Assembly: GCA_016188625.1 (NCBI GenBank)
Contig: JACPHL010000055.1
Span: 1-8,291 of the forward strand
Origin: Candidatus Rokuibacteriota bacterium
GTDB lineage: Bacteria > Methylomirabilota > Methylomirabilia > Rokubacteriales > JACPHL01
Direction: 5' to 3'
Length of the DNA: 8,291 nt
Shown here: positions 46-7,191 of the stretch, piece after piece
How the letters are laid out: every line of letters begins with the position of its first letter
How positions within the stretch are numbered: the stretch's first letter is position 1
Notes under the pieces: model-generated
What the model was told of the DNA's origin: nothing
The model's database searches: none
The model's input: only the letters and a program-made list of their open reading frames with translations
Program-made: the position numbers and the translations under genes

Positions 46-996
46 TTAGCGGTGGCAGGCCATGCAGTCCAGCGGGGCCCGGGCCCCGGCGGCGCTCATC
101 TCCCGGTGGCACTCGATGCACCACCCCATGGTGAGCGGGCGCGGCGGCCCGCCCAGGCCCACCAGTCCCCGGAGGTCGTGGAGGACGCTCGGCCCGGTCT
201 CCGCGTGGACGCGCTCCATCGCCTCGACCGGGCCGTGGCAGCTCTGGCAGCGCAGGCCCGCGCGCACGTGGGGCTTGTGGGGGAAGTGGACGAACTCGGG
301 CAGCCGGAAGACGCGCACCCAGGGGATCGGCTCCTTCCGCTGCCAGTAGCCGTGGAGCTTCTCGACCTCGGGGTTCCCGCGGGCCGCGACGATCTTGTGG
401 CACCCCATACAGGTCGCCACGGACGGGATCCCCGCCGCCGCGCCCCGCCGGGCCCCGGAGTGGCAGTACTGGCAGTCGATCCGGAACGACCCGGCGTGGA
501 TCAGGTGGCTGAAGAAGATCGGCTGCTCGGGCCCCTGCCGCCGCCCCGGCACCGGGAGGACCTCCCCGGGCCGGAACGGGGGGCGGGCCAGCGTCCGGAG
601 GTAGGCGATGACCTGGGCGATCTGCCGGTCGGCGAGGAAGGCCTTCCACCCCGGCATGAGCGGGGAGAGCCCCACCGCCTGCCCCCCCTCGCCGATGATG
701 CGGGCCAGGACGTGGTCGGGCAACGGGTTCATGACCCGCCCGTCGGTCAGGTCCGCGGGCCGGACGGGGAGGGCGGCGCCGGCGTCGCCGTCGCCCCTCC
801 CTTCGGGGCCGTGGCAGCTGGCGCAGTGCCGGGCGTAGAGCTGCCGTCCCCGTTCGACCTCGGACCGGGTGGGGGGGGAGCCCGACGACGCCGTGAGGAG
901 CGCCCCTAGGGCGGTCGCCATGGCGGCGGCGAGGAGGAGCCGGGCGGGTGCCCTCCGGGTAGGGCTCTGGCACGATAGCTGCACCACGGACCTCAC
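46..996 (-). CDS. Exported hexaheme cytochrome c: class I monoheme domain fused to an ActA-like pentaheme domain
   Basis: Likely a periplasmic electron-transfer subunit. Six CxxCH heme sites are visible: C58-H62, C175-H179, C196-H200, C250-H254, C293-H297 and C311-H315. The first, with Met114 (SPLMPGW) as probable distal ligand, is a class I monoheme domain (about 46-136). The other five, with the FSHLIHAG, PIPWVRVFRLPEFVHF and LTMGWC motifs, match the ActA pentaheme subunit of alternative complex III (quinol:cytochrome c oxidoreductase). A signal peptide is clear: basic TRRAPAR, then LLLAAAMATALGALLTA. The start is uncertain. GTG at 996 opens the frame, but GTG at 987 or 984, just after a GAGG, has better ribosome-binding context. 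ATG at 921 would lose the basic n-region. It ends with TAA right after CHR. Partner subunits (ActB/ActC) would lie beyond the left edge. Family knowledge gives the pentaheme call; the quinol-oxidising role is inferred. Confidence 0.86.
   Translation of the reverse strand: MRSVVQLSCQSPTRRAPARLLLAAAMATALGALLTASSGSPPTRSEVERGRQLYARHCASCHGPEGRGDGDAGAALPVRPADLTDGRVMNPLPDHVLARIIGEGGQAVGLSPLMPGWKAFLADRQIAQVIAYLRTLARPPFRPGEVLPVPGRRQGPEQPIFFSHLIHAGSFRIDCQYCHSGARRGAAAGIPSVATCMGCHKIVAARGNPEVEKLHGYWQRKEPIPWVRVFRLPEFVHFPHKPHVRAGLRCQSCHGPVEAMERVHAETGPSVLHDLRGLVGLGGPPRPLTMGWCIECHREMSAAGARAPLDCMACHR
968..983 (+). promoter_or_regulatory. Candidate sigma-54 (RpoN) -24/-12 promoter for the BON-domain gene
   Basis: TGGCACG, four bases, then CTGCA. 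This matches the sigma-54 consensus TGGCACG-N4-TTGCA at every conserved base except one (C for T). The invariant GG and GC start exactly 12 bases apart. Counting from the -12 element, transcription would begin near 994, a few bases before the ribosome binding site at 998-1007 and 19 bases before the ATG at 1013. The site lies at or inside the 5' end of the divergent cytochrome gene, so any enhancer-binding-protein sites would have to sit within that gene. Identified by eye only. Confidence 0.6.
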
Positions 997-997
997 G

Positions 998-1007
998 AAG
1001 GAGGTGA
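998..1007 (+). promoter_or_regulatory. Full-length Shine-Dalgarno sequence of the BON-domain gene
   Basis: AAGGAGGTGA, a complete complement of the usual 16S anti-SD tail, ends 5 bases before the ATG at 1013. It decides this start over the upstream in-frame ATG codons, which fall inside the divergent cytochrome gene. On the minus strand the same bases give no ribosome binding site for the cytochrome. Confidence 0.85.
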
Positions 1008-1012
1008 GCGGG

Positions 1013-1321
1013 ATGCCTTACCCGATTCGATCCCTGGTCGCGACGGCGCTCCTCGCCGTCATCTTCGGCGACTGCACGGCCGTGACCGGCAAGACGCTGG
1101 GGGAGAACATCGACGACGCCTCCATCACGGCGACGGTCAAGTGGAGGCTGGCCCGGGAGAAGGCCGCGATCCTGACGAGCATCGACGTGGACACCAACAG
1201 GGGCACGGTCTACCTGAGCGGGACGGTGGAGAGCGCCGCGATGAAGCGACGTGCCGTCGAGCTGGCGCGCGAGGTCCAGGGCGTCCGCGAGGTGATTGAC
1301 AACATCAAGGTCCGCGAGTGA
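1013..1321 (+). CDS. Small exported BON-domain protein
   Basis: 102 residues. An N-terminal hydrophobic segment (SLVATALLAVIFG, about 7-19) acts as an export signal. The rest is a single BON domain (about 36-101) with the typical GTVYLSGTV turn and the closing VREVIDNIKV strand. BON domains (OsmY family) are found in periplasmic or outer-membrane proteins and are thought to bind phospholipid or other envelope surfaces. The TGKTxGENIDDASIT lead-in is common in small lipoproteins of this family, where a GC pair marks the lipidated cysteine. Here the sequence is IFGDC (Cys21), with Asp just before the cysteine, which does not fit a lipobox, so lipidation is doubtful. It is divergent from the cytochrome with a 16-base gap and has its own strong ribosome binding site and a candidate sigma-54 promoter, which suggests nitrogen- or stress-linked control. 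It is convergent with the cyclase gene. Confidence 0.88.
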   Translation: MPYPIRSLVATALLAVIFGDCTAVTGKTLGENIDDASITATVKWRLAREKAAILTSIDVDTNRGTVYLSGTVESAAMKRRAVELAREVQGVREVIDNIKVRE

Positions 1322-1430: not shown

Positions 1431-3182
1431 TTACGATGCTAGGCCCGCTGCCCGGAGACTCGCAACGATGCGCTCAAGCACCGCAGGATCCCTGTAGGGC
1501 TGCGTCTCCGCCCATTTGGACACCGAAAAGTCGGGCCGCAGCCTCGCCACCTCTTGCGCAAGCTCGCGCGCCGAGCCCTCATTGCCAGTGGCGCGGCAAA
1601 CCTCGATCAGCACCAGGCGCGCGTCGATGTCGTCGGACTTGAGACGCAGCGCCTCCTTGGCCGCTGCGGTGGCCTCATCCCATCTGCGGATCTCTTTGCA
1701 GCCCGCGGCAAGGACCACTTCGAACCAGGACCCGTGGACTGGCGTCAGGCGCATCGCCTGCCGCATGCGATCAGCCGCGTCTCCGGGCCGGCCGCAGTAG
1801 TACAGGATGTTCCCCAGGAGGGGGTTGGCGTTCGCGCAGCTCGGGCGTATCGTCACCGCCTGCTCGGCCACTTCGAGCGCCTTGTCATGCTCGCGCCGGA
1901 GCAGGTGGATATGCGCCATGACGAAGTGGGCCTGGCCGTCCACGTCTTCCATCGCCAGCGCGCGTTCGGCCCACTGCACGGCCAACTCCAACGAGCGTGC
2001 CGGTGGCGTTGTCCAGCCTCGAAAAGCGTCCCACCAATGCGCGAAGGCAACCAAGGTCGGGCCAAGGAAGCTCTCGGGCGCGAGCCGCGCGACCTGCTCG
2101 AAGTTCTCGCGCGCCGCCGCATTCGCTTCCTTCTGCCCCTTCATGAGCTCGTGAAGGCCGCGATAATAATACTCGCGTGCCTTCGGGCTCCTGAGGGTCT
2201 TGCGCCACACCCTTGCGTGCTCGCCGCTCAACAGCTTCACGTCTAGCGCCGTGACGACCCTCTCGGTGATCTCGTCCTGAACCCCAAGCGAGTCGTCCAG
2301 GACGCGGTCGTAATGCTCGGTCCACATGACCTGCCCCGACGAGCCGTCGATCAGGGAAGCCGTGACGCGAGCGCGGTCGCCCGACTTTTGGACGAAGCCT
2401 TCGAGCAGGTAGCGCACCCGCAGCTCAGCCGCGACCTGTGCCGGCGTCACGTCCTTGTTGCGATAGGTATTCATCGTGCCGGAGGCGATGACCATCAGGC
2501 CGGCGATCTTGCCGAGCGCCCACTGGATGTCCATACGCAGCCCGTCGGCGAGGATGACCTGCTCCGGGTCTGCAATTGGCGTCCTGAACGGAAGAATCGC
2601 GATCGAGGGCAACGCATTGAGGTGCTCGGCGGTCCTGCGGTACGGCGGCACTGGGTCGGCGGCAATGGCGTGATACCAGCGAACCGGGTTCAGGATGTTC
2701 TTGACCGTCTGCTCCCCTTGGTCGACGAACACCGCTGCAACGTGACCGCGAACCGCGCTGTGCACAAGGTCCGATACGGCTATTCCGCCGGGCTCCGCGA
2801 GCCCCTGCAAGCGTGCCGCAACGTTCACCCCGTCGCCGTAGATCGAGCCGTCGGCCTTCTCGAGCACGTCGCCGAGGTGCACACCGATGCGAAAGCGCAT
2901 GCGACGGTCCTCGGCCACGGTGGCCGAACTCGCCTCGATGTCTCTCTGCATAGCGAGGGCGGCCTCAACCGCGCCCGTGGCCGCCTCGAACACGGCGAGC
3001 ACCGAGTCGCCCGCCGTATCGATTACGCGTCCTTGATGAGTCTCGACGTGCCTACGAATGACGCTGCGAGCAGAGTCAAGCGCCGCGACGGTTGCCCGCT
3101 CGTCCACTGCCATGAGGCGAGAATACCCCGCCGCGTCGCCGGCGAGGATCGCCACGAGTCGCTGCCTGTGTTCCTGAATCAT
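1431..3182 (-). CDS. Class III adenylate/guanylate cyclase with TolB-like and TPR regions
   Basis: Makes a cyclic nucleotide (probably cAMP) from NTP in the cytoplasm; no signal peptide or membrane segment is visible. The cyclase domain (about 7-172) has both metal aspartates, Asp16 (AGDAAGYS) and Asp59 (TAGDSV), and the transition-state pair Asn120 and Arg124 (GVNVAAR). Ser113 occupies the usual purine-selecting Asp/Thr position. Next is a TolB-N/FlgO-like domain (about 190-320, opening SIAILPF) as found in many rhizobial-type cyclases, then a TPR-like helical region (about 335-570) that probably binds a partner. The ATG at 3182 is preceded by AAGGGGGG, and 583 residues suits this architecture. 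Base composition is visibly less GC-extreme than the cytochrome or mgtE, with AT-rich codons such as ATAATAATA near 2162. With the flanking direct repeats this hints at separate ancestry. The cyclase call is secure; substrate and partner are inferred. Confidence 0.93.
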   Translation of the reverse strand: MIQEHRQRLVAILAGDAAGYSRLMAVDERATVAALDSARSVIRRHVETHQGRVIDTAGDSVLAVFEAATGAVEAALAMQRDIEASSATVAEDRRMRFRIGVHLGDVLEKADGSIYGDGVNVAARLQGLAEPGGIAVSDLVHSAVRGHVAAVFVDQGEQTVKNILNPVRWYHAIAADPVPPYRRTAEHLNALPSIAILPFRTPIADPEQVILADGLRMDIQWALGKIAGLMVIASGTMNTYRNKDVTPAQVAAELRVRYLLEGFVQKSGDRARVTASLIDGSSGQVMWTEHYDRVLDDSLGVQDEITERVVTALDVKLLSGEHARVWRKTLRSPKAREYYYRGLHELMKGQKEANAAARENFEQVARLAPESFLGPTLVAFAHWWDAFRGWTTPPARSLELAVQWAERALAMEDVDGQAHFVMAHIHLLRREHDKALEVAEQAVTIRPSCANANPLLGNILYYCGRPGDAADRMRQAMRLTPVHGSWFEVVLAAGCKEIRRWDEATAAAKEALRLKSDDIDARLVLIEVCRATGNEGSARELAQEVARLRPDFSVSKWAETQPYRDPAVLERIVASLRAAGLAS

Positions 3183-5601: not shown

Positions 5602-7191
5602 CTAGAGCAGGAACCGCATCAGAAGGGTGGCCAATCCCAGGTAGATGCTCACCCCGACCACGTCCTGAAAGGCCGTCTCGAACGGCCCCGCGGTCAGGGC
5701 CGGATCGAACCCGAGGCGCTTGGAGATCATGGGGAAACCGGTCCCCGTGATGGCGGACAGGTTGATGGAGATGAACATGGACAGCCCCACCACCAGGCCG
5801 AACACCCAGTGGCCCTGCCAGAAGGTGCCCACGAACCCCACGACGGTCCCGCAGATGAGGCCCAGGACGAGGGTGGTCTTCAGCTGCTGCCAGATGGCAT
5901 GTCGCCACTGGCGAGGGTTCACGTGACCCGTCGCCAGGCCGCGCACGACGATCGCCGCCGATTGGAGGCCGGTATTCCCCGCGATGGCCTGGATCAAAGG
6001 CATGAACGAGACCAGCAGGATGACCTGGCCGAGCGTCCTGTGGAACTGGGCGATGATGAGGCCTCCGAGGAGCTGGATCCCGATGGTCACCATGAGCCAG
6101 GGCAAACGGAGTATCGCGCGGCGCCCGGTGGGGAGCCGCTCCAGCTCCTCGGCGCCCGACCCCACCATGGCCGCCACGTCTTCCTCGTGCTCCGCGTGGA
6201 TGACGTCGATGACGTCGTCCACAGTGATCGTCCCCAGCAGCCGGTTGTCCCGCCCCACCACCGGGACCGCCAGGAGGTTGTGCTTGGCGACCAGGCGCGC
6301 CACCTCCTCCTGGTCCATCTCGGGGGTGACGCTCAGCACGTCCCGCTGGCTGATGGCGTGGACGGGGGTGATGGGATCGGCCGTGATGAGCCGCCGGATC
6401 GGGAGCACCCCGACGAGGTGCTCGTGGTCGTCCACCATGTAGAGGTAGAAGATCGACTCGGCGCTGGCCGCCTTGCGGACGTGCTCCAGGGCCTGGGCCA
6501 CGGTCATCTCCTCGTGGACCGCCACGAACTCCGGGTTCATGATCCGGCCGGCGGTCTTCTCGCCGTGCCGGAGCAGCTCCTGGACCTCCTCCGACTCCTC
6601 CCGCTTCATGAGGTCCAGGAGCTTCTCGGCCTGCTCCTCGGGGAGGTCGCTCATCACCTCGGCGGCGTTGTCGGGGGGCATCCGGTCCAGGATGCCGGAG
6701 AGCTCCGCCTCGTCCAGGGCCTGGACGAGCGCCAGGATCGTCTGGTCGTCCATCTCGTGGAGGACCGCGCCGGCCTGGTCGCGGGAGAGGTGACGGAAGA
6801 CGGTCACCTGCTGGGGGAGCTCGAGGTCGCGGAGGGCGCGGGCGAGGTCCACGGGGTGGGTCTCGTCCAGGAGGGCCTGGAGGCGGTCGGTCCCCTCCGC
6901 CTCCAGGAGGTCCCGGAGGGTGTCGGCGAAGGCGGCGAGCTCGTCGGGCGTCACTTCTAGGGGGCCCCGGACTGGGGCGGCCGGGGAGCCCCCAGCTCCC
7001 GGCCCCGGGCCTCTCGCTGACGGCCGGCCCGCCGGCGCCGCCCCGAGGGCCGCGGACCCGAGCGTGACCACCGCCACCGAGGACTCGAACGTCCAGCGCA
7101 GGAACTGGACCTTGACGGGCTCGGCGTTCTGGAGGGCGAAGACCGCGATGGCCAGGGCGAAGAGGGTGACCAGGAGGTAGATCAGCTGCAC
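5602..7191 (-). CDS. mgtE: MgtE-type Mg2+ transporter, open in frame with an N-terminal LapA-like segment
   Basis: The frame encodes 529 residues from a GTG at 7191. Residues 80-529 are a complete MgtE: helical N domain (about 84-215), two CBS domains (about 216-340, ending TVDDVIDVIHAEHEEDVAAM, the plug-helix lead-in) and five membrane helices (about 363-528). The helices carry the pore signatures AIAGNTGLQ and GPFETAFQDVVG; Asp510 corresponds to the conserved ion-binding aspartate. MgtE is a homodimeric inner-membrane Mg2+ channel gated by cytoplasmic Mg2+ at the N and CBS domains. A GTG at 6954 (residue 80) would give exactly 450 residues, the usual length, and is my preferred start. Residues 1-50 look like LapA, followed by a Gly/Pro/Ala-rich linker. 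It starts 10 bases after the preceding gene's stop and the redoxin follows after 31 bases, so it is probably co-transcribed. Confidence 0.9.
   Translation of the reverse strand: MQLIYLLVTLFALAIAVFALQNAEPVKVQFLRWTFESSVAVVTLGSAALGAAPAGRPSARGPGPGAGGSPAAPVRGPLEVTPDELAAFADTLRDLLEAEGTDRLQALLDETHPVDLARALRDLELPQQVTVFRHLSRDQAGAVLHEMDDQTILALVQALDEAELSGILDRMPPDNAAEVMSDLPEEQAEKLLDLMKREESEEVQELLRHGEKTAGRIMNPEFVAVHEEMTVAQALEHVRKAASAESIFYLYMVDDHEHLVGVLPIRRLITADPITPVHAISQRDVLSVTPEMDQEEVARLVAKHNLLAVPVVGRDNRLLGTITVDDVIDVIHAEHEEDVAAMVGSGAEELERLPTGRRAILRLPWLMVTIGIQLLGGLIIAQFHRTLGQVILLVSFMPLIQAIAGNTGLQSAAIVVRGLATGHVNPRQWRHAIWQQLKTTLVLGLICGTVVGFVGTFWQGHWVFGLVVGLSMFISINLSAITGTGFPMISKRLGFDPALTAGPFETAFQDVVGVSIYLGLATLLMRFLL
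6957..7191 (-). other. LapA-like (DUF1049) coding segment, possibly a frameshifted separate gene
   Basis: From GTG 7191: membrane helix LIYLLVTLFALAIAVFAL, the family signature QNAEPVKVQFLRW, and the start of a second helix (VAVVTLGSAALGAA), as in LapA/DUF1049 inner-membrane proteins linked to LPS assembly. The second helix then breaks into a Gly/Pro-rich stretch. Shifting by one base at about 7040 instead gives a basic tail (GRRRRAGRQREARGREL and on) that ends at TAG (6959-6957), two bases before the likely mgtE GTG at 6954. That is the expected arrangement for separate coupled genes. So either lapA has a one-base indel (real or sequencing error) or it is a true fusion. The second helix is incomplete in both readings. 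Confidence 0.6.

Follow-up and report, generated by a model that had tools for sequence, protein, structure and literature searches.

A probable sigma-54 promoter upstream of a BON-domain gene of Candidatus Rokuibacteriota and its conservation in related loci

The question raised by this locus is whether a small exported protein with a BON domain is placed under RpoN (sigma-54) control by a promoter lying at the start of a divergent cytochrome gene. The window, i.e., the whole 8,291-nt stretch of DNA that was analyzed, is contig C167 of a 2.6-Mb MAG (84% complete) of a Candidatus Rokuibacteriota bacterium. A preliminary description of the window had pointed to a sigma-54-like site, one base off the consensus, upstream of the BON gene, and the site was found where it had been placed (Table 1). 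Compared with TGGCACG-N4-TTGCW it has a single mismatch, a C in place of the T that opens the -12 box, and it was the sole one-mismatch match to the consensus in the whole window. Its GG (969-970) and GC (981-982) are 10 bases apart, which is the sigma-54 spacing claimed earlier, and the site lies 45 bp upstream of the BON start codon. Taking GC as -13/-12 puts the predicted transcription start at C994, with A995 equally plausible, and gives a predicted leader of 19 nt. The full Shine-Dalgarno sequence of the preliminary description was likewise present ahead of the ATG.

Table 1. Features of the window and of related loci discussed in the text.
Feature	Position	Strand	Basis or remark
Predicted sigma-54 promoter, TGGCACG-ATAG-CTGCA (-24/-12 elements), TGGCACGATAGCTGCA	968..983	+	Conserved upstream of homologous BON genes
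Predicted transcription start	994..995	+	Inferred from -12 spacing
Shine-Dalgarno, AAGGAGGTGA	998..1007	+	Window sequence
BON-domain exported protein, 102 aa, possibly a lipoprotein	1013..1321	+	PF04972, E 1.9e-18; 20-homologue alignment
Divergent multi-heme cytochrome c	46..984	-	Start GTG 984, or GTG 987, GTG 996, ATG 921
Recurrent neighborhood of relatives	L081:8247-11344; likewise L083, L085-L090, L092, L097		Gene order
BON-linked activator, relative of the C205 regulator	L081:9300-10697		
Candidate enhancer, TTGAAAAnnnTTCCA...TTTGGG-TGTAG, or variant	Between the divergent sites of L022, L024, L026-L031, L033, L039		

The product of the BON gene scored 67 bits against PF04972, above the gathering cut-off of 27, and contains a signal sequence. 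Its Cys21 was invariant among 20 homologues; the residue before it, at position -1 of the lipobox, is G or A in most homologues but D in the window protein (IFGD-C). The protein is possibly a lipoprotein. The closest homologues in named genomes were mostly from Candidatus Rokubacteria/Rokuibacteriota (Methylomirabilota). Because the next gene is on the opposite strand, the BON gene is probably transcribed alone. A reading frame at 1431-3182 (minus strand) consists of TPR repeats fused to a class III adenylate/guanylate cyclase domain. Farther along, a single ORF at 5602-7191 (minus strand) joins a LapA-like N-terminus, which at 27.5 bits is slightly below its cut-off (28), to a MgtE magnesium transporter that is complete; the two may be fused, the start may have been set too early, or the assembly may be wrong.

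On the other side of the promoter, the cytochrome was found to consist of a c/cbb3-type heme domain followed by a QrcA-like multi-heme half (84 bits, cut-off 180). Among its possible start codons, GTG 984 is the likeliest, with GAGGT just upstream. The earlier claim that the promoter sits inside this gene would hold for a GTG start, which puts the promoter over the first codons, and would fail for ATG 921, which leaves it intergenic; a position within the gene is thus probable but not certain.

In order to see the site in its homologous settings, the BON protein was searched against the window's own genome and 98 more (99 in total), all of the relatives being from outside the genus and family of the window's MAG. 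From the best BON loci in the order, 21 were taken, each from a different genome and with the window included; they were oriented, and 520 bp upstream of each was scored with a matrix that approximates the published sigma-54 consensus; a strong site was defined by a score of at least 12. A study of D. vulgaris gave the same elements, tGGcacg and tTGCt (PMC4641369). Strong sites were present on the sense strand in 15/21 loci and on the antisense strand in 1/21, while other spacer lengths yielded a site in 0-1 of the 21. The corresponding values for 300 column-shuffled matrices were a mean of 0.33 loci and a maximum of 4, and for Markov sequences a mean of 0.24 and a maximum of 2. Four further loci had a weaker site, TGGCACG-N4-GTGCC, for a total of 19/21 (18/20 without the window), which are not 19 independent events since some of the loci are close kin; in one pair the flanks are as much as 68% identical. 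The BON homologues of L023 and L037 had no site in the 520 bp upstream. Identity between loci reached 83% over the 12 core bases, a value inflated by the picking of sites by score (the antisense, spacer and shuffle controls are unaffected), as compared with 29%, equal to chance, in the flanks and 26% in the four spacer bases. GG, CA and TGC never varied among the BON-upstream sites.

Held-out BON paralogues, scored at a threshold of 10.5 or above, had a sense-strand site in 8/20 cases and an antisense site in 0/20. A background test on automatically called gene starts gave 8/18 for BON genes versus 31/201 for other genes (p 0.006), but this test is weak because called starts are often too far upstream and the neighbors are rich in sigma-54 sites, and the match-anchored test (520 bp upstream, 21 loci) was preferred. 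BON homologues outside Rokubacteria had few sigma-54 sites. The gene divergent from the conserved site varies among the relatives (a membrane protein, an M48 peptidase, a methyltransferase-like protein and others) and is not the window's cytochrome; what the site accompanies is BON, or a dksA/traR-like gene upstream of BON in an apparent operon. As the divergent neighbor differs among loci, cytochrome codons do not impose the conservation, and GG and GC are kept in the 19/21 loci beyond what such codons would require, a point on which the preliminary description had proposed that its promoter be checked.

Sigma-54 promoters need an activator (enhancer-binding) protein. The window's genome was found to encode RpoN itself (PF04552, E 7.2e-62, with the RpoN box ARRTVAKYR), the other component on which the earlier proposal depended, and 13 sigma-54 activator domains scoring over 200 bits, plus fragments at contig ends; no activator gene is present on the window's contig. 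Downstream of BON, ten relatives carry a gene for an NtrC-type activator composed of a receiver, a sigma-54 interaction domain and a Fis-type HTH. The gene order there is a divergent M48 peptidase gene, a dksA/traR-like gene (in most), BON, the activator and, in some, a gene that by sequence reading is histidine-kinase-like (e.g., L081_9). The divergent M48 peptidase gene carries its own sigma-54 site in the ten activator-linked loci; for the peptidase itself, the window's genome gave only a weak match (29%). The closest match in the window's genome to the BON-linked activators is a regulator encoded on contig C205, which shares 58-59% identity with the ten (next best, 49%) and contains GAFTGA.

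Between the divergent promoters of these ten loci a dyad, TTGAAAAnnnTTCCA or a variant, was observed; its center is 133-175 bp away from the start on the BON side and 76-109 bp away from that on the M48 side, and the usual position of enhancers is 80-150 bp upstream (PMC4987338). A locus that was not used in defining the dyad (L040/L098) has a version of it at -148 (L098:494-518, minus strand). The element is a candidate binding site of the linked activator. The preliminary description had expected enhancer sites within the cytochrome coding sequence; none was found there, and the dyad of the relatives is absent from the window. A palindrome near position 907, CCCTAGGG, was tried as an enhancer and dropped, since it is at chance level for the base composition.

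These observations bear on which activator would serve the window promoter. That the promoter is real but answers to an enhancer-binding protein other than that of C205, and to another signal, has in our estimate slightly less than an even chance, and is compatible with the reading we prefer in everything save the activator. The dyad was detected neither in the window nor anywhere in its genome when searched as a 25-base pattern with up to two mismatches, it was likewise missing from L034-L036, relatives in which BON is unlinked to this NtrC-type activator, and at least 13 activators are available in the genome. Against this, the C205 protein is clearly the closest to the BON-linked regulators, and enhancers can drift faster than promoter cores.

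A chance match in the 5′ part of the cytochrome gene, with BON read from another promoter, appears quite unlikely. The exact pattern TGGCACGNNNNYTGCW occurred three times in 2.6 Mb, where by our own estimate about two matches are expected from base composition, and pattern searches with a relaxed consensus found 7 matches genome-wide versus 7 for a reversed control; the motif is at chance level in the genome and the string alone is therefore weak evidence. However, homologous genes have this site upstream of them too, with orientation and spacing unchanged despite unrelated flanks, and this conservation of the predicted promoter in relatives is not explained by chance. In addition, a simple consensus scan of positions 800-1450 showed no sigma-70-like site. 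Least probable of all is that RpoN binds without an activator and mainly blocks the cytochrome gene, for although the promoter overlaps the probable cytochrome start, so that polymerase held there as a closed complex would stand in the way of that gene, loci with no cytochrome at this place have retained the site, which indicates BON as the main target, and its distance and orientation suit the BON start.

Taken as a whole, the findings lead us to favor, with a probability of roughly 85%, a functional sigma-54 promoter that drives the BON gene and most likely depends on an NtrC-type regulator such as that of C205. Transcription, the acting activator, its binding place in the window and the signal are inferred. 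RpoN polymerase would sit at the GG and GC of the site as a closed complex and would fire only once an enhancer-binding protein has been activated and hydrolyzes ATP; the likeliest such protein is an NtrC-type response regulator, perhaps that of C205. Transcripts starting at 994/995 would then supply BON protein on demand for export. The trigger would probably be envelope or general stress. Of the enhancer-binding-protein control (nitrogen, phage-shock or similar) that had been suggested for the gene, nothing points to nitrogen, and it is envelope or general stress that the neighborhoods of the relatives suggest.

Other sigma-54-like sites were observed in the relatives and in the window's own genome. 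Two to three successive sites per neighborhood occur at L093:6361, 8140 and 8865, at L095:6541, 8321 and 8998, and at L094:9902 and 8860; they precede a DUF748 gene, a small membrane-protein gene and BON, after which comes an AI-2E-type transporter gene. On contig C336 of the window's genome, a site (AGGCATGGAGGTTGCA, L124:493) lies 90 bp upstream of a dksA/traR-like gene. High-scoring sites of the same genome at L121:328 and L121:2732 (C316), L132:4619 (C247), L130:2869 (C108) and L125:4199 (C75) are followed, in that order, by genes for a Met-rich exported protein, a small membrane protein, a glycine-zipper protein, another Met-rich exported protein and a universal stress protein. A further site, TGGCATCCGGCTTGCT at L133:3669 (C240), is 65 bp upstream of a gene that reads like lpxC.

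Over the neighborhoods and the window's own genome, then, sigma-54-like sites were found near genes for LigD-type primase-polymerase, DUF748, dksA/traR-like, glycine-zipper and universal stress proteins. These genes look like a stress regulon, which is suggestive only, and would fit the proposal that the bacterial exterior is governed by sigma-54 (PMC3162934). More tentatively, and with the odds somewhat against it, rokubacterial RpoN may run an envelope or general stress regulon, as RpoS or EcfG does elsewhere, with the window promoter as one output. The regulon would comprise BON, the M48 peptidase lipoprotein and the dksA/traR-like, LigD-type primase-polymerase, DUF748 and universal stress protein genes, with a dedicated NtrC-type two-component system encoded beside BON in many members. 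RpoS gave no match over the family cut-off (378.7 bits) in 59 genomes. RpoS-like factors scoring up to 324 bits exist, so this search does not establish that RpoN replaces RpoS.

In the literature covered, which did not extend to subscription papers, we found no paper linking BON proteins to RpoN or describing RpoN control in Rokubacteria, and no report of this neighborhood of BON and activator. The conserved site would connect RpoN with a family of small exported proteins throughout an order, in a group with almost no cultured members, and a likely regulator and a candidate enhancer can be named that are testable in a surrogate host.

Among known systems, the neighborhood of the relatives resembles ZraSR-zraP of enterobacteria, in which ZraR serves the divergent sigma-54 promoters of zraSR and zraP (PMC4987338): in both, sigma-54 promoters point away from each other, and the genes around them encode an exported protein and a response regulator of the NtrC type. 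The relatives differ in carrying BON, M48 peptidase and dksA/traR-like genes and not zraP, and nothing in them points to zinc. The ten relatives have such a module; the window does not, its divergent gene being the cytochrome and no activator gene lying next to BON. The window protein is also like OsmY (NF007858) and other BON-domain stress proteins in that it is small, exported and contains a BON domain. It has only one such domain, however, and at 55.2 bits falls far under the NF007858 cut-off of 174, so that it is not an OsmY equivalog. The osmY gene of E. coli is controlled by RpoS, not RpoN. As for the promoter, its -12 box begins with C and not T, and TGCC or TGCG is a frequent ending of the sites in relatives, in place of TGCW. 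Given correctly spaced GG and GC, a single mismatch overall, and both rpoN and activators in the genome, the predicted promoter joins the known sigma-54 class.
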